64,000 nucleotides of DNA, taken from Rhizobium sp. Leaf262 (GTDB taxonomy: Bacteria > Pseudomonadota > Alphaproteobacteria > Rhizobiales > Rhizobiaceae). Positions 983 to 61,658 of the stretch are shown one piece after another. The DNA lies in the NCBI RefSeq assembly GCF_001422245.1, contig NZ_LMMM01000003.1:124001-188000 (forward strand), written 5' to 3'. Position numbers and translations under genes: made by a program. The notes beneath the pieces are model-generated. The model searched no databases. It had not been told where the DNA came from and was given only the letters and a program-made list of their open reading frames with translations. The stretch's first letter is position 1, and every line of letters starts with the position of its first letter.

Positions 983-2056
983 TCAAGCCTTTTCAGCGGC
1001 TTTGCCACCCGTCAGATCGGGCGTCAAATCCGAAACGAAATCTCCGATACCGGGGCGCTTCAACGCGCGGAATGGCAAGGGACGGCACAAATCCATGGCG
1101 GCAATGCCGATTCGTGCGGTCATCAAACCGTTGATGACGCCTTCACCCAGACGGGCGGAAAGGCGCGAGGCGAGCCCGTGGCCCAGCACCTGCTGCGCCA
1201 GGCCATCCCCAACCGCAATAGATCCCGTAACTGCCAGATGAGCGATAACATCTCGCAGCAACCGCAGCATGCCGAGCGTGCCGGGACGCCCGCCGTAAAG
1301 CTCCGCCATGGTCCGCACCAGCCGCGTAACCTCGAACAGCACATAAGCAAGATCGACGACCGCACGGGGGCTGACGGCGGTGACGACAGAGACGCGCTTG
1401 GAGGAGTTCAGGATCAAGGCGCGCGCCTGCCGGTCGAGCGGGCTCAAAAGCTCGCGTTCAGCTAGTTCGATCAGGTGCGGTCCGTCGATCACATCGTTCT
1501 CAGTTTCTTTCAGCGCGGCACGACCCTTGGCCGTTTCTGCCCGGTGAGAGAGGACGCCATTGAGGCGGGTGATGACCGTGCGGGCGGCAGAGGGTTTCTT
1601 CTCCAGCGCCGCAGCTTCCGCATCTGCCTTCAGCGACTGAACGGCGTTCAGCCGCATGATGCCGAGCGCCTCACGCGCCACCAGAGCCAGCACGGCGAAG
1701 ACGGCGATGATAAGCGCCACACTTGCGGTGTAGCCCAGCCAGTCGGAGCGCGAAAACAGATCGCGGATGAGCTGATCCGCCCACAGGCCGAAGGCAAGCG
1801 AGAACAGCACGCCGAGTGCACCCATGGCCAGCTTGGCGAAGGAGAAACGGCGCTTGCGCGGTGCGGCGACGGGGAGGGCTGCGGTATCCATTTCCTCAGG
1901 TGCCAGAAACGGGTCTTCCTCCTCTGGCGTCAGCGAAAAATCCGCATCGAAACTACGCGGCGCGCGTCTTGCTTCGATGGTGCGAGGCTCTGGAGTTTCG
2001 CTTTCCAGCGTGAATGCAGCCGGACGACGGCCGGGCGTGTTGTTTTCGTCTTTCAT
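983..2056 (-). CDS. YcjF-type membrane protein (UPF0283/DUF697, TIGR01620)
   Basis: 357 residues. The acidic, proline-rich N-terminal 70 residues precede two closely spaced membrane segments (about 72-95 and 105-128), then a soluble region and a C-terminal DUF697-like domain (about 215-330) containing another hydrophobic stretch. This is the architecture of E. coli YcjF. Its ATG overlaps the stop of the upstream ycjX-like gene by four bases (ATGA), so the two are translationally coupled. The cellular function is not established; in enterics the pair belongs to the phage-shock/stress regulon. Family assignment is firm, role is not. Confidence 0.85.
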   Translation of the reverse strand: MKDENNTPGRRPAAFTLESETPEPRTIEARRAPRSFDADFSLTPEEEDPFLAPEEMDTAALPVAAPRKRRFSFAKLAMGALGVLFSLAFGLWADQLIRDLFSRSDWLGYTASVALIIAVFAVLALVAREALGIMRLNAVQSLKADAEAAALEKKPSAARTVITRLNGVLSHRAETAKGRAALKETENDVIDGPHLIELAERELLSPLDRQARALILNSSKRVSVVTAVSPRAVVDLAYVLFEVTRLVRTMAELYGGRPGTLGMLRLLRDVIAHLAVTGSIAVGDGLAQQVLGHGLASRLSARLGEGVINGLMTARIGIAAMDLCRPLPFRALKRPGIGDFVSDLTPDLTGGKAAEKA

Positions 2057-3528
2057 GCGAGCCGGTCTCCAAACAAAAACTGCATGGCGCGGTCGAGCCT
2101 GATGTGCGGAACGGACAATTTTATGCCGCCACTGGTTTCTTCCAGCTTGGGCGGGCGGAAGCGCACGACGTTCACATCCGGCAGATCGGCGGCACTGCCT
2201 CCGGCATCCAGCGCGCGAAACAGCGGCTCCGGGTCTTCCGGCAGGTCACCGGGAAATATTGCCGTGGTGCGGTTGCCGTCGAAAATCTCACCATTGATTT
2301 TCTCGCCCGCAATCGGCGTGCCGACGATGACAGGCAGCGCATGACCATCCTGCCGCACGCTGGCTTCCTTCGTGGCGCGCACGGAGGCCAGCGCCATGAC
2401 ATCGATGCCAGCGCCGCTCATGCCGATGGTGGTGATGGCACGATCTACCAGTCGCCGTGTCAGATTTTCCAGCCGGTCGTGGCTTTCGTGGTGCAGATGG
2501 TCGGCCTTTGTCGCCGCCACCAGAACCTTGTCGATGCGGCGGCCCACCAGCGAGGACAGCAGGCTGTTCTTGCCGGGACGGAAACAGGCCAGCACATCGC
2601 CCAGCGCCCGCTCCAGGTCTTGCACCGCCTCCGGTCCACGATTGACGGCCTGTAGCGCGTCGATCAGCACGATCTGGCGGTCAAGCCGGGCAAAGTGTTC
2701 GCGGAAGAACGGCTTCACCACGATGGATTTGTAAGCCTCGTAACGCCGCTCCATCATGGCGCGCAGCGAGCCCTTGGGTGCCTTGCCTTCAGTCAGGCCC
2801 GGAAGCGGTGAGAAGGTGAGGGCAGGAGAGCCTTCCAGATCGCCCGGCATGAGAAACCGTCCCGGCGGCAGCGTGGAAAGCGAACGCTCATCCGATTTGC
2901 AGGCGCGCAGATAGGTCGCAAAGCTCTCGGCCAGACGTCGCGCCGTCATTTCATCGGCAGGGGCGTCGATGTCGAGGGAATTGGCAATCTCCAGCCAGTC
3001 TTGTGCCAGCTCCGCCCGCACACCGCCAGATGCCAGCGCCAGCGTGTTGTCGCTGAAGGTCTTATAGTCTTGGGACAGGAGGGGAAGGTCGAGCAGCCAT
3101 TCGCCAGGGTAATCGACGATATCGATGGCGAGATGTCCACGCGAGAACCAGCGGCCCCAGCCGCTTGCGCTTTCGTAATCCAGCGTGATGCGCAGCTCTG
3201 AAATCGCCCGCGTCGAATCTGGCCAAATGCGGTCTCGCACCAGCGCCTGAATGTGATCCTCATACTGAAAGCGTGGAATGGCATCATCCGGCTGCGGCTC
3301 CAGCCGAACATTCGATACGCGACCAGAGCGGATGGCCTCGAACAGAGGAAGGCGACCGCCATTCAGCAGATTATGCACCAGCGAAGAGATGAAAACCGTC
3401 TTGCCCGCGCGGGACAGGCCGGTCACGCCCAACCGCAATGTCGGGTTGGTCAGCGCGCTGGCACGGTCGGCAAGATTGTCGATGGCGATGAGAGCGCTGT
3501 CTGTGACGGAGGTGAAGGATGGCGGCAA
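2053..3528 (-). CDS. YcjX family P-loop GTPase/ATPase (DUF463)
   Basis: 491 residues, the usual length for YcjX. A P-loop, GLSRAGKTVFISS, lies at about residues 36-48; a Walker-B-like DYPGEWLLDLP follows near 140 and an ATKADHL motif, similar to the G4 NKxD of GTPases, near 340. YcjX proteins are stress-inducible nucleotide hydrolases paired with YcjF. The predicted start is a TTG with a weak ribosome-binding site, so the exact N-terminus is uncertain, although only about 35 residues separate it from the P-loop. It is the first gene of a two-gene leftward operon. Confidence 0.88.
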   Translation of the reverse strand: MPPSFTSVTDSALIAIDNLADRASALTNPTLRLGVTGLSRAGKTVFISSLVHNLLNGGRLPLFEAIRSGRVSNVRLEPQPDDAIPRFQYEDHIQALVRDRIWPDSTRAISELRITLDYESASGWGRWFSRGHLAIDIVDYPGEWLLDLPLLSQDYKTFSDNTLALASGGVRAELAQDWLEIANSLDIDAPADEMTARRLAESFATYLRACKSDERSLSTLPPGRFLMPGDLEGSPALTFSPLPGLTEGKAPKGSLRAMMERRYEAYKSIVVKPFFREHFARLDRQIVLIDALQAVNRGPEAVQDLERALGDVLACFRPGKNSLLSSLVGRRIDKVLVAATKADHLHHESHDRLENLTRRLVDRAITTIGMSGAGIDVMALASVRATKEASVRQDGHALPVIVGTPIAGEKINGEIFDGNRTTAIFPGDLPEDPEPLFRALDAGGSAADLPDVNVVRFRPPKLEETSGGIKLSVPHIRLDRAMQFLFGDRLA

Positions 3529-3637
3529 CAGGAGTTTCCCACAAAATATTTCACTATCCCGAAATATATAGGCTCATGCGCTGCTCAAAAAAGAAGCGGC
3601 ACTCGGAAAGTTTTCCGCGTACCGGACGTCTCGCATA

Positions 3638-4147
3638 TTAAGGAGAAAGGAAGGCGGTCAAACGCCAATCGACACCGTCACCATCGGGCGAGGGTTGCGC
3701 GTCTAATACTGCAAGCCCAGCCGTTGGAAAACCGGACGGAAGATGGGCCTCGATCTGTGTTTTCCCGATCATGGCCTCGGCGACAGCCTCGATCGTCGGA
3801 TTGTGCCCCACCAGCATGACGGAGCGGCTGGCGCTCTGCGCGGAGATCAAAGCGAGATAGGTATCGACCTCGGCATTGTACATCTCGTCCACGTAATCGA
3901 CATCGAATCTGTCGTTGAAAGCCCGCCGAACCGCCTGCGCTGTTTGGCGACAGCGAAGCGCTGTGGAACTGATGACGACGTCTGGAAGGTAGCCTGCGTC
4001 GGCGGCGCGGTCTGCGACGACTTCGGCCTCGGCATAACCTGCGTCGTCCAACGGCCGGTCGAAATCCCGTTCGCCCGGACCGGCCCAAGCGGCATGGGCA
4101 TGGCGCAACAGATAGACCCGGGAGGGCAGCGGTGAGGGCTCGTTCAT
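3638..4147 (-). CDS. SixA-like histidine phosphatase
   Basis: 169 residues from the ATG at 4147; a longer frame reaches 4234 but its first 29 residues look unrelated to the family. The RHA version of the RHG motif (LLRHAHAAW, R15-H16) marks the histidine phosphatase superfamily, and the later VGHNPTIEAV supplies the second catalytic histidine. The short single-domain form with SSTALRCRQTAQ resembles SixA phosphohistidine phosphatases, which act on histidine phosphotransfer domains or PTS-Ntr proteins. Substrate here is not shown by sequence. Leftward, about 110 bases upstream of ycjX. Confidence 0.85.
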   Translation of the reverse strand: MNEPSPLPSRVYLLRHAHAAWAGPGERDFDRPLDDAGYAEAEVVADRAADAGYLPDVVISSTALRCRQTAQAVRRAFNDRFDVDYVDEMYNAEVDTYLALISAQSASRSVMLVGHNPTIEAVAEAMIGKTQIEAHLPSGFPTAGLAVLDAQPSPDGDGVDWRLTAFLSP

Positions 4148-57776: not shown

Positions 57777-58304
57777 TCAGAGCGGCTGCAAGTCCCTGGC
57801 GAAGCGCTGCCAGTTGCGGACATAGTTCTCCGCCGACTTCTTCAAGCCCTCGACTGCCTTGTCATCCAGTGTGCGGATGGCGCGGGCAGGCGAGCCGACG
57901 ATCAGTGAATTGTCGGGAAATTCCTTACCCTCAGTCACCAGCGCATTGGCTCCAACAAGACAGTTTCTGCCGATCTTCGCGCCGTTCAACACGGTAGCAC
58001 CCATGCCGACCAGCGAGTTGTCACCAATCGTGCAGCCGTGGATGATGGCATGGTGGCCGATGGTGCAGCCTTCTCCAATGATGGCCGGAAAGCCGGGATC
58101 GGCATGCACCATCACGCCCTCCTGAATATTGCTGCCGCGACCGACGGTGATGGGCTCATTATCACCGCGCAGCGTCGCGCCAAACCATATGCCGACATCC
58201 TCACCAAGCTTGACGGACCCGATGACGTTGGCATCGGGCGCCACCCAGTAGCGATCTGGGGCAGGGGTTTGCGGCATACGTTCGTCAAGGCGGTAAAGCG
58301 GCAT
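57777..58304 (-). CDS. gamma carbonic anhydrase-like protein (YrdA/PaaY type)
   Basis: 175 residues. Left-handed beta-helix of hexapeptide repeats (WFGATLRGDNEPITVG, IGEGCTIGHHAIIHGCTIGDNSLVG, MGATVLNGAKIG) with the three zinc-ligand histidines in MVHADPG and TIGHHAIIHG. Members are often zinc enzymes or thioesterase-like. The gene begins 13 bases after the FAH-family gene and is probably its operon partner. Confidence 0.9.
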   Translation of the reverse strand: MPLYRLDERMPQTPAPDRYWVAPDANVIGSVKLGEDVGIWFGATLRGDNEPITVGRGSNIQEGVMVHADPGFPAIIGEGCTIGHHAIIHGCTIGDNSLVGMGATVLNGAKIGRNCLVGANALVTEGKEFPDNSLIVGSPARAIRTLDDKAVEGLKKSAENYVRNWQRFARDLQPL

Positions 58305-58317
58305 ATCTTATCCTCGC

Positions 58318-59007
58318 TTAAGCGATTTTTACGGACAGCGTTCCAACACCATCCACGCCGCAATCGATCCGGTCGCCGGAGACGATAGCGCCGACACCCG
58401 CCGGTGTACCCGTCATGATGACATCGCCTGCTGCCAGTGTGAAGAGCTTGGAAAGCTCAGCAATGATCTCCGCCGTCTTCCAGATCATCTGGTCGAGATC
58501 ACCCGACTGCTTGCGCTCGCTATTAACCTCCAGCCAGACCGCGCCCTTCGCCGGGTGGCCGATTTTGGAAGCCGGGACGAGCGGGGAGACTGGCGCGGAA
58601 AACTCGAATGCCTTGGCGCTTTCCCAGGAACGGCCCATTTTCTTCAACGCATCCTGCATGTCACGGCGCGTCATATCGATGCCGACACCATAACCCCAGA
58701 CATGCTCCAGCGCGTCGTCGACGGAAATGTCCGAGCCGCCGCTTTTCAGCGCAACCACGCATTCCACTTCGTAGTGCACATTCGAGGAGAGCGCCGGATA
58801 AGGAAAGTCATTGCCCGCAGGCAGCAGATTGTCCGCATTCTTCTGGAAGAAGAAAGGCGGCTCGCGCGAGGGATCGTGGCCCATTTCGATGGCGTGGTCG
58901 GCATAATTGCGCCCGACACAATAGACCCGGCGCACCGGAAAAGTTTCGTCGGTGCCTTCAACCGGCATCAAAACAGTGGGTGGAACGGGAATGACGGTCG
59001 CGGACAT
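58318..59007 (-). CDS. fumarylacetoacetate hydrolase family protein
   Basis: 229 residues. CVGRNYADHAIEMG, PPFFFQKNADNLLPAG, and HYEVECVVALKSGG with its metal-binding glutamates, then DVIMTGTPAGVGAI are the standard FAH/FAHD1 motifs. Members act as acylpyruvate hydrolases or oxaloacetate decarboxylases. A GGAGC site precedes the ATG. Transcribed leftward with the carbonic anhydrase-like gene; its promoter lies just left of the dusA stub. Confidence 0.9.
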   Translation of the reverse strand: MSATVIPVPPTVLMPVEGTDETFPVRRVYCVGRNYADHAIEMGHDPSREPPFFFQKNADNLLPAGNDFPYPALSSNVHYEVECVVALKSGGSDISVDDALEHVWGYGVGIDMTRRDMQDALKKMGRSWESAKAFEFSAPVSPLVPASKIGHPAKGAVWLEVNSERKQSGDLDQMIWKTAEIIAELSKLFTLAAGDVIMTGTPAGVGAIVSGDRIDCGVDGVGTLSVKIA

Positions 59008-59144
59008 GGGTTTGGCTCCTGATTTCAGGTGATGTTTGTCCCGCGATTCTGCCGGGATTTCCAGTTTAAAATCTGCGCAGGCAGAAAACTGGCATTATTG
59101 CCCGCATTGCGGTAGAAGCCCCGCAGAAAGAGGTTTCGCAATCC

Positions 59145-59222
59145 ATGTATAAGCACGCACTCGCAACCGACGGCAAGATTTTCGCCGTGGCACCCATGAT
59201 CGACTGGACGACTCGTTTTTAA
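59145..59222 (+). pseudogene. dusA: dusA 5' stub (original first codons)
   Basis: ATG at 59145 opens MYKHALATDGKIFAVAPMID then WTTRF and a TAA at 59220. Residues 11-21 (KIFAVAPMIDW) equal the start of DusA. After codon 22 the match to DusA stops abruptly. This is the chromosomal start of dusA, cut off by the insertion of the element described next. The truncated peptide is unlikely to be functional. Confidence 0.88.
59196..59210 (+). repeat. left attachment core
   Basis: ATGATCGACTGGACG, the boundary of the dusA stub. The same 15 bases occur at 60696-60710. Confidence 0.85.
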
Positions 59223-59262
59223 GTAATTGAATTTGTTAATAAAATTATTTCCAAACTCGCCA

Positions 59263-59433
59263 TGGTGCAGTTTTGGTGCAGTTGACGCCAAGCGACAGGT
59301 GCAGGTTCAACTGATGGTCGCCAGAGGCCGAGCGTGATGGGGAGTGTCTGGGGGTAGCGGGCAGTGGCGGAAAACCTGCCCGCTGTAGGGGATGTCGCTG
59401 TGGGATTTAGTCAGGCTTCTGTGGTTGGTGCAG
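59263..59433 (+). repeat. left-end TGGTGCAG repeats
   Basis: Three direct copies of TGGTGCAG at 59263, 59274 and 59426. The first two are 11 bases apart. The same word is repeated at the right end, suggesting arm-type binding sites for a recombinase or excision factor. Confidence 0.65.
59357..59383. other. stem-loop in island left end
   Basis: Perfect eight-base stem GCGGGCAG / CTGCCCGC with an 11-base loop; no T-run. Together with the repeats it fills the 236 bases before the first cargo gene. Confidence 0.45.
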
Positions 59434-59458
59434 TCGGCTTCCCCGATGGAGATTATGA

Positions 59459-60076
59459 ATGAAAGACCTTCAAGCTGCGACGGATCGCTTGTTCCGAGAT
59501 TACCTCCGGCACTGCCAAGCGCCGAACGAGGATACACTTTTCCATTTCCTGAATTCGTTACACAGCTTCAGTGATAAGCTCGGACGGCACAGGAAAGGCG
59601 GCCTTCACAGCTCCCCGAGTTTCATCGGGCTGAAAGCTCTGAGAAATCTCTTCCACCACGAGGCGGAGCTTCTCAGCAAGATTAGTGTCGCAACGGATTT
59701 CGTTCAGCCGATTGTGGTTGAGCTAATGCGCGTCTGTCTGGTTGATCGTTCGCTTATTGAGCGGGCAGCCTCAGCTGAGGCCAAGCAGGCGGCGAAGTTC
59801 AAAAGGGAGCCGGGAGATGTCGCAGGGGCATTCAATTGGTACGGGCAGATCGTCGATATAGAGCCCGCCATCTTCAACGTGGCGGTCGATGCTTATGACG
59901 CGATCCAGGAGATTGATATCTCACCTTGGTCCGAGGCATTTCAGCGGTTTGAGGCGAGCTATGAGTACGATGAGGAGAATGGCTTTGAACATCGCGTGAC
60001 AGGCAGAATTTCCTGCCACGCGGGTAGCGTTAGCGAACTTCTACGCAAGATGCATGAAGCGGCTACCGAGGGATAA
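59459..60076 (+). CDS. island cargo protein, candidate HEPN-type ribonuclease
   Basis: 205 residues, no signal peptide or membrane segment, predicted mostly helical. GGAG lies eight bases before the ATG. Residues 58-70 read LKALRNLFHHEAE: R62-N63-x3-H67 fits the R-polar-x3-H active-site motif of HEPN ribonucleases, common in toxins and abortive-infection proteins. The rest shows no domain I know. The assignment rests on this motif and on the mobile context alone, so it is tentative. It faces the small winged-helix-like gene convergently. Confidence 0.6.
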   Translation: MKDLQAATDRLFRDYLRHCQAPNEDTLFHFLNSLHSFSDKLGRHRKGGLHSSPSFIGLKALRNLFHHEAELLSKISVATDFVQPIVVELMRVCLVDRSLIERAASAEAKQAAKFKREPGDVAGAFNWYGQIVDIEPAIFNVAVDAYDAIQEIDISPWSEAFQRFEASYEYDEENGFEHRVTGRISCHAGSVSELLRKMHEAATEG

Positions 60077-60107
60077 TCGCTAGTTAGGTATCGACAGCTG
60101 CCCAGAA

Positions 60108-60377
60108 TTAGTCCCCCTCACGTTCCCAACCAGGCATAGAATAGAAGCCGGGTTTGTGCATCTTGACGATCCCACGCGTCACGAGGCTGTCCAGGCTGCG
60201 TTGAATCTCTTCCAAAGTCCGACCGCCCAGGCCGTATGAATAGTGGTGCTGCGTACCTTCCCCGATGTACGTGTACCCGCCATCCTCTATCCACTTCACT
60301 AGCGCTTTCTGCACCCCACCAAGCCTAGCCGTTTTGAGCCCGTAGCTTGGTGTAGTCTTAGCTGCTGTACCTTCCAC
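60108..60377 (-). CDS. island cargo protein, small winged-helix-like
   Basis: 89 residues from a GTG at 60377 with GGAAAGGA five bases upstream. Pattern: helix (GVQKALVKWIEDGG), then helix RTLEEIQRSLDSLVTRGIV and a wing-like KMHKPGFYSMPGW, as in winged-helix DNA-binding proteins. It could regulate the element. A nine-base inverted repeat lies about 70 bases upstream of its start and may be its operator. Confidence 0.6.
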   Translation of the reverse strand: MEGTAAKTTPSYGLKTARLGGVQKALVKWIEDGGYTYIGEGTQHHYSYGLGGRTLEEIQRSLDSLVTRGIVKMHKPGFYSMPGWEREGD

Positions 60378-60447
60378 AATCCTTTCCTAGGCGGCTCATG
60401 GCCGCGTCTGTTGGTGTCAGCACCGATAGTACAGCACCAGGTTTCCA

Positions 60448-60470
60448 CTATTCAACAAATCGTTGAATAG
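60448..60470. promoter_or_regulatory. perfect inverted repeat in island, candidate operator
   Basis: CTATTCAAC and GTTGAATAG separated by AAATC. It lies between the start of the leftward 89-residue gene and the repeat cluster at the right end. Either an operator of that gene or part of the attachment region. Confidence 0.5.
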
Positions 60471-60480
60471 ACACGATGAA

Positions 60481-60635
60481 TGGTGCAGTTAGCGAAAATA
60501 TTGGTGCAGTGGTGGTGCAGTAGACGGTGCAGTTGGGAAATTACCCGAAGACCACCGCCAATGGATTCAAATGGTTAGACGTGTTAGAGAGTGGCCTAAA
60601 ATGGCCGTGGTGCAACATGGTCTTGCGTGGTGCAA
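60481..60635 (+). repeat. right-end GGTGCA repeats
   Basis: Six direct copies: TGGTGCAG at 60481, 60502 and 60513; CGGTGCAG at 60525; TGGTGCAA at 60608 and 60628. All share the orientation of the left-end copies. The last ends 12 bases before the dusA ATG, so proteins bound here would affect dusA expression. Confidence 0.7.
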
Positions 60636-60647
60636 TTGTGGATTACC

Positions 60648-61658
60648 ATGAAAAATCAATATCTTAAGCGCGAAAAAATCTTCGCGGTCGCCCCGATGAT
60701 CGACTGGACGGATACAAGGTGTCGCTTTTTGCACCGGCAACTGTCTAGCCATGCGCTGCTTTACACGGAAATGATCGTGGCCGATGCGATCATTCATGGT
60801 CAGCGGGACAAGTTGCTGGCGTATCACGAACAGGAACATCCCGTAGCGCTCCAGCTCGGTGGGTCTGATCCGGCGAAGCTTGTCGAAGCGGTGAAGATTG
60901 CCGGCGACTATGGCTATGATGAAAACAACCTCAATGTCGGCTGCCCGTCCGACCGGGTGCAGTCTGGCGCCTTCGGCGCTTGCCTGATGCGTGAGCCGGA
61001 AACGGTCGCCCGTTGCGTGGAGGCGATGAAAGCCGTGGCAACCGTGCCGGTGACGGTCAAATGCCGGATCGGCGTGGATGATCAGGAACCGGAGACGGTG
61101 CTGCCGGACTTTATTGCGCGTGTTGTCGCGGCTGGCGCAGATGCGGTTTGGATCCATGCGCGGAAGGCTTGGCTGCAGGGCCTGTCACCAAAAGAAAACC
61201 GCGATGTGCCGCCACTCGATTACGAGCTCGTCTACCGCATGAAGCAGGCAAACCCCAATGTCTTTATTGGCATCAATGGCGGTATCACTGACCTCGATCA
61301 GGCCGAGGAGCATCTGAAGCATGTGGATGGTGTGATGCTGGGCCGTGCGGCCTATCACAACACATCCATTCTGGCCGATGTCGATCACCGCATTTACGAA
61401 AAAGCGGCAACCGCACCGGACTGGATGAGATTGCGCGACACGATGATGGATTATGCGCAGGATTACATCGACAAGGGCGGGCGGCTGAACCATGTCACCC
61501 GCCATATGGTCGGGCTGTTTCAGGGGCTGCCGGGCGCACGCCGCTTCCGCCAGATCCTCTCCAGCGACGCGACACGCCCCGGTGCCGGGCCAGAGGTGAT
61601 CGCCGCAGCATTCGCCGCTATCAATTTTGATGCAAGCTCGGACAGCATCGCTGTCTAA
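60648..61658 (+). CDS. dusA: dusA, tRNA-dihydrouridine synthase A (5' end supplied by island)
   Basis: 336 residues from the ATG at 60648; a GTG/ATG-type start at 60627 is possible. DusA reduces uridines 20/20a in the tRNA D-loop using FMN and NADPH. FMN-binding start KIFAVAPMIDWTD, catalytic C99 in NVGCPSDRVQ, SGAFGACLM, and INGGITDLDQA are intact, so the gene is functional in spite of the insertion. Codons 1-21 and the promoter come from the mobile element. The ribosome-binding site is weak. Confidence 0.95.
   Translation: MKNQYLKREKIFAVAPMIDWTDTRCRFLHRQLSSHALLYTEMIVADAIIHGQRDKLLAYHEQEHPVALQLGGSDPAKLVEAVKIAGDYGYDENNLNVGCPSDRVQSGAFGACLMREPETVARCVEAMKAVATVPVTVKCRIGVDDQEPETVLPDFIARVVAAGADAVWIHARKAWLQGLSPKENRDVPPLDYELVYRMKQANPNVFIGINGGITDLDQAEEHLKHVDGVMLGRAAYHNTSILADVDHRIYEKAATAPDWMRLRDTMMDYAQDYIDKGGRLNHVTRHMVGLFQGLPGARRFRQILSSDATRPGAGPEVIAAAFAAINFDASSDSIAV
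60696..60710 (+). repeat. right attachment core
   Basis: Second copy of ATGATCGACTGGACG, inside dusA codons 17-21. Right of it the sequence is native dusA. Confidence 0.85.

Follow-up and report, generated by a model that had tools for sequence, protein, structure and literature searches.

The closest described systems are the dusA-specific genomic islands, in which, in the account of Farrugia et al. 2015 (PMC4482086), the start of dusA is replaced and the original start is left at the outer boundary of the island; an integrase is common to all 94 islands published there, and their sizes range from 4,758 to 184,808 bp. A new N-terminus of dusA is likewise described for IMEVchUSA3 in Vibrio (PMC8409611), a large element with its own integrase and rdfN that is mobilised by IncC plasmids. 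CIMEs are elements of 1.2-13 kb which have kept their att sites and lost their recombination genes, and they are described as deletion products, that is, as decayed ICEs or IMEs which are moved in cis by accretion (PMC7563491). A further comparison is offered by the hitchers, for example MITEs and CALINs (PMC11389934), which are non-autonomous DNA served by an enzyme from elsewhere.

The locus analysed here lies in a 64,000-nucleotide stretch of the genome of Rhizobium sp. Leaf262, referred to as the window, and its features are collected in the table. As in the dusA-specific islands, the target is the 5' end of dusA, the insertion is bounded by direct repeats (36 bp and imperfect, with an identical 15-bp core), a new 5' end is supplied and the original one is found at the outer boundary. 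Unlike those islands, which in the published account carry an integrase and measure at least 4,758 bp, the element spans only 1,500 bp from core to core, and no integrase ORF was found within 59211-60695 in the ORF list or with Pfam or NCBIfam; the integrase common to all published islands is missing here. IMEVchUSA3 is set apart by its large size, its own integrase and rdfN and its mobilisation by IncC plasmids. CIMEs are similar in being att-flanked and without recombination genes; the elements described below differ from them in their phage-type ends and varied cargo, and, as far as the DNA was examined, none of the four forms a tandem with an element that carries an integrase. The likeness to MITEs and CALINs is one of function only, as their recombination sites and enzymes are others. 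No paper on integrase-less dusA elements was noticed in searches of open-licence papers, which is weak evidence of absence.

Table. Features of the element and its flanks in the window, listed from left to right.
Feature	Position	Strand	Remarks
FAA-hydrolase gene, native left neighbour of dusA	58318..59007	-	PF01557, 183 bits
Native dusA start, severed by the insertion	59145..59222	+	MYKHALATDGKIFAVAPMIDWT, then element-derived TRF-stop
Left core (attL side), ATGATCGACTGGACG	59196..59210	+	Exact 15-bp repeat of 60696-60710
Left arm repeats	59263..59304	+	GTGCAG at +69, +80 and +103 from core start
205-aa cargo gene, putative defence gene	59459..60076	+	Without Pfam or NCBIfam family; invariant RNLFHH motif
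89-aa ORF	60108..60377	-	Without Pfam or NCBIfam family
Palindrome TATTCAAC-N5-GTTGAATA	60449..60469		Sole copy in the window at no more than one mismatch
Right arm repeats	60481..60535	+	GTGCAG at -213, -192, -181 and -169 from right core start
Conserved right-hand end preceding the donated start; candidate for a promoter region	60512..60647	+	Alignments of four genomes
Donated dusA start codons, MKNQYLKREKIFAVAP	60648..60695	+	61.7% to G023; resemble G156, G352, G159 and G011
dusA, intact with donated start	60648..61658	+	336-aa reading frame
Right core (attR side)	60696..60710	+	Exact repeat of the left core

The intact gene is identified as dusA by an equivalog-level match to NF008774 (508 bits, cut-off 269) and by TIGR00742 (426 bits, cut-off 397.2), and its first codons, from the ATG at 60648, read MKNQYLKREKIFAVAPMIDWT. 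The stub opens with an ATG at 59145, about 1.5 kb further upstream. Between the stub (59175-59210) and the intact gene (60675-60710), 30 of 36 bp are identical, all six differences fall on third codon positions and the same 12 residues are encoded; the 3'-most 15 bp of this repeat are the same in both copies and constitute the core. The residues that precede the repeat are unrelated in the two reading frames. The preliminary description had reported both features, shared residues with altered third positions and entirely different first residues, and on comparison both hold, with its coordinates being correct.

The origin of the two starts can be judged from relatives without the island. dusA was matched in 60 of 61 genomes, and 29 of the 36 same-genus relatives were examined as loci L004-L032. 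In 25 of the 29, the FAA-hydrolase region (58301-59146) is directly upstream of a stub-like dusA start, the remaining four (L007, L012, L016, L017) having a different start of the LNFY or LNLY type; element-like DNA is absent from all 29. The closest relative, the island-free genome G023, presents the empty site: 95.0% identity to the window over the 800 bp left of the core, 94.0% (47/50) over the stub start and 93.1% over the body of dusA, against only 61.7% (29/47 aligned) over the 48-nt donor start and 48-49%, equal to background, over the element's own ends. These identities indicate that the stub is native and that the intact gene begins with foreign codons. The earlier claim that the element brought a donor 5' end while keeping the reading frame therefore stands, as the stub matches G023 and the intact start does not, and integration at the core with in-frame replacement of the start is well supported by these alignments. 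The mechanism itself is already published for this class of island (PMC4482086, PMC8409611). The four deviating loci belong to G029, G015, G004 and G003, and their LNFY/LNLY-type starts resemble those seen where Rhizobium phage RHph_Y3_56_1 has its attP. A dusA-type integrase adjoins dusA in G003 and also in G015, where its frame is shortened. G015 and G004 are left out of the count of bounded elements given below.

Within the element, two ORFs are of note, the 205-aa gene and, on the opposite strand, the 89-aa ORF; the latter has a PHROG match at E 0.033 only and is confined to its own genome among 297 family genomes. The sequence TGGTGCAG occurs in six copies on the + strand of the element, compared to 0.12 expected per 1.5 kb from the rest of the window. 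The palindrome is also present in the related elements of G352 and G159 and absent from G156 and from the examined part of G011; in the three elements that have it, it occupies the gap that separates the cargo slot on the reverse strand from the right arms, and it is possibly an operator.

Three more bounded dusA elements, all integrase-less, were found in other genomes: G156 (1,049 bp), G352 (1,949 bp) and G159 (2,105 bp). Together with the window, the four represent three genera, measure 1.0-2.1 kb, and combine common ends with one to three small cargo genes. G156, from another genus, has a copy of the 205-aa protein (86% identical) inside its own dusA, where the core is the same and the donor start reads MKNQYHSGEKIFAVAPMIDWT. 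G352, from the same genus as the window, has the donor start MKNQYYSGEKIFAVAPMIDWT and a decayed stub; its empty site is G029, with 89.6% identity upstream and 97.3% downstream. G159, from a third genus, has the donor start MRNQYLNREKVFAVAPMIDWT. The left cores have decayed in G352 and G159 and the left arms are lost in G156, which suggests that some copies may no longer move. In G159 (L098, reverse-complement coordinates 1907-4012) the right arm repeat has been amplified into a 12-bp head-to-tail array, with GTGCAG at -229, -217, -205, -193, -181 and -169.

The right-end profile R1 matched five of 394 family genomes in four genera (the window's genome, G156, G011, G159 and G258); G352, which may not have been in the sample, is not among these matches. 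G011 shares the right end and has a similar donated start; its contig breaks off within the element, and a search for a homologue of the 205-aa protein found none in it. In G258 (L099, 15089-16274) a related dusA start, MKNHCGSGQKIFAVAPM, is accompanied by a related right end (45.6 bits) and by a 277-aa ORF without a Pfam family upstream of dusA; no stub was found at this dusA locus, so it may be an older or a different insertion. Both genomes, being unbounded, are left out of the element count.

The cargo varies between the bounded elements: the 205-aa gene and the 89-aa ORF in the window, the 205-aa gene in G156, an MtlR-like ORF (178 codons), a 205-aa family gene and a reverse-strand DUF1653 ORF in G352, and an MtlR-like 172-aa gene with a split, reverse-strand DNA methyltransferase in G159. 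The MtlR-like proteins of G159 and G352 share 84.8% amino acid identity, and against the MtlR cut-off of 25.2 bits the former lies just above (25.4) and the latter below (24.0). Pairs from different genera show an abrupt shift in identity at the core. For G156 and G352 the values are 90.1% in 162 bp of the right end, 70.3% in the dusA body and 56.2% in the stub, and the window and G156 are 82.3% identical in the nucleotides of the 205-aa gene and 69.5% in the dusA body; site-specific arrival would fit this pattern better than shared descent. The window and G352 show no sign of recent exchange, as their dusA bodies (81.0%) are more alike than their 205-aa genes (76.6%) or right ends (65.8%). 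The stub of G352 itself opens with an LNFY-type start, which is also seen in its relative G029; comparable starts are present in dusA prophages and beside the attP core of Rhizobium phage RHph_Y3_56_1. dusA starts can thus be overwritten in succession.

The ends of the elements resemble a phage attP. Counting GTGCAG or GTGCAA from the start of the core, the right arm pair is at -181/-169 in all four elements and at -172/-160 in Klebsiella phage YMC16/01/N133_KPN_BP (Casjensviridae), and the left arms are at +69/+80/+103 in the window, G352 and G159 (none in G156) and at +69/+80/+120 in the phage; the +69 and +80 distances are therefore exactly those of the phage in three of the four elements. 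The order of arm repeats and core, with similar distances, that belongs to the attP class of the YMC16/01/N133-type integrase is hence seen in the elements. A right-end profile built from five sequences was run against 129 phage, viral and dusA-integrase loci (852 kb), and its best matches were the two records of this phage (E 1.2e-6). A left-end profile from three sequences, G156 being omitted for want of left arms, matched this phage too, in the stretch immediately following the phage core (E 8.2e-5, 129 loci); its match to the dusA-integrase spacer of G511 was marginally better (E 4.2e-5). As controls, reversed sequences gave no match at E<=10, and none at E<=1 came from the dusA loci of the 29 relatives. 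Once the donated codons are removed, the right end matches the phage at E 0.0088 only, which is still the best match. The phage attP has a comparable donor start (KRNQYLNGEKIFAIAPMMDWT) and core, and its arm repeats are spaced correspondingly; the two cores are distinguished by a single base and, unlike the element, the phage carries an integrase and a whole phage genome. The integrase (348 aa) adjoins the attP and is 37% and 43% identical, respectively, to the integrases beside dusA in G511 and L149.

Wider searches returned few such ends. The arm-pair pattern was found in two of 397 order genomes, the second being G511, in which a related integrase is located beside dusA. The exact donor-end pattern has no occurrence in viral_contigs, the plasmid set has no match to either end, and the phage set has none to the left end; the right end matched the two records of the Klebsiella phage only, over 29% of the query. 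In viral_contigs the arm-pair pattern is on one contig, L182, with three plus three repeats near a 199-aa integrase ORF, and the dusA core was not found on it. Repeats of the GGTGCAG type near integrase genes are seen at L182 4171-4334 and at L220 2700-2930, both on viral contigs in which no dusA core was detected, so the arm motif is not exclusive to dusA. Among viral dusA loci, 127 were confirmed and 80 kept, the core had a readable start in 37 of the 80, and a TGGTGCA-type repeat was present in two of these 37 (L112 and L149) within the stretch scanned; most of the dusA prophages examined therefore do not have these arms.

The 205-aa protein has no Pfam or NCBIfam family, no match in the phage set and no relative in viral_contigs. 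It was matched in three of 297 family genomes and three of 39 genus genomes, the window's genome being included each time. The PADLOC model PDC-S04 was matched by only one of ten family members, at E 0.0025, and nothing convincing was seen among PDB sequences or folds, from which the family may be absent. The predicted fold (pLDDT 82.5) gave a best Foldseek E of 0.33, and the HEPN toxin 8yuf_B ranked 13th (Z 4.9), in the company of unrelated helical bundles. HEPN ribonucleases are marked by the motif R-x4-6-H (RNxxxH). In the alignment of the family, in which two of the ten rows are identical and the truncated L064 is omitted, LKALRNLFHH is invariant in all ten rows, and its RNLFHH fits the HEPN motif. 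A role in defence is no more than a reasonable guess. Within the DNA examined, the copies of G106 and G004 lie outside dusA elements. Homologues near defence-like genes are found at L048 (G106), L065, L066, L067 and L092 (G004); the one in G106 is beside a reverse transcriptase and a PRTase-CE gene (L048, 4532-7789), others are near multiubiquitin/ThiF genes or near a cytosine methyltransferase, and one shares a stretch of plasmid with VapBC and an integrase.

Taken as a whole, it is probable that the window holds a non-autonomous, integrase-less element of 1.5 kb, integrated at the dusA core by a phage-type integrase acting in trans, and that it belongs to a small set of such elements. The element would have recombined at the 15-bp core inside dusA, severing the native start as the stub and giving the gene a new in-frame 5' end. 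Since the ends amount to attP arms similar to those in a Casjensviridae phage of the dusA type, integration and excision most likely occur when a dusA-type integrase is supplied in trans, its source probably being a phage of that type. The set as a whole would be defined by its common ends, between which one to three small cargo genes, some defence-like in appearance, are combined. Against an integrase in trans, a helper with the same ends was not found in these searches, the sequences gave no sign of excision, the right end without its coding codons matches the phage at E 0.0088 only, the phage core deviates by one base, and the phage and the hosts are far apart (Klebsiella compared to Rhizobiaceae-like genomes). 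The pair of the window and G352, the lost left arms of G156 and the decayed left cores also weigh on that side.

The main rival is that the element is a dead remnant, a dusA island or prophage that lost its integrase and most of its genes by deletion, as in the published description of CIMEs (PMC7563491). In favour of this reading are the decay of two of the four left cores and a broken dusA-type integrase on another contig of the host genome. This frame is the single match there in a search at 1e-10 with the dusA-type integrase of G511; the genome has 12 Phage_integrase matches, 11 of them above the cut-off. The broken frame (G000:C6:162959-163936, L188) has one internal stop, and neither TGGTGCA repeats nor the dusA core were found in the 4-kb locus L188. 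The same search of the four host genomes left three of four without a match and the fourth with the broken one only, a more distant integrase being able to escape it. No parent island with the same cargo was found for the window element. On the other side, ends, small size range and, in differing combinations, part of the cargo are common to all four elements, which come from three genera, and repeated independent deletions to one form are less likely than the spread of a small form; a dead remnant is accordingly regarded as unlikely.

Homologous recombination, with a foreign dusA or DNA near one as donor, could likewise place foreign codons before a native gene body. As the source of the new start it is very improbable, given that the native start survives in a stub 1.5 kb upstream, that an empty site exists, that the exchange took place at the 15-bp core on either side and that the arm repeats stand at fixed distances. 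Tandem duplication of the dusA 5' end followed by divergence would account for a 36-bp repeat encoding the same 12 residues and can otherwise be dismissed, with unrelated first residues, DNA between the copies that is absent from the 29 same-genus dusA loci and an empty site in G023.

dusA may also be transcribed from the element. The preliminary description had placed dusA under the control of the island, and transcription from the element is plausible by analogy with IMEVchUSA3, for which a lacZ fusion revealed a new promoter with lower dusA expression (PMC8409611), the promoter having been demonstrated in that system only. A consensus scan gave no sigma-70-like sites in 58900-60800, other promoter types being outside the scan.

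The exchange of 5' ends was already known for dusA islands; what is new here is the integrase-less, cargo-varying nature of the elements. More broadly, it is quite possible, and put forward tentatively, that they are integrase-free mini-satellites of 1-2 kb which split a phage attP around one to three small, partly defence-like genes, parasitise the integrase of dusA-specific Casjensviridae-type phages, swap cargo between conserved ends and cross genera while keeping dusA in frame. If an integrase does act in trans, very small site-specific satellites would consist of little beyond a core with arm repeats and a donated start for the gene, the cargo lying between them, and single small genes, possibly anti-phage, would move between genera without a recombinase of their own.
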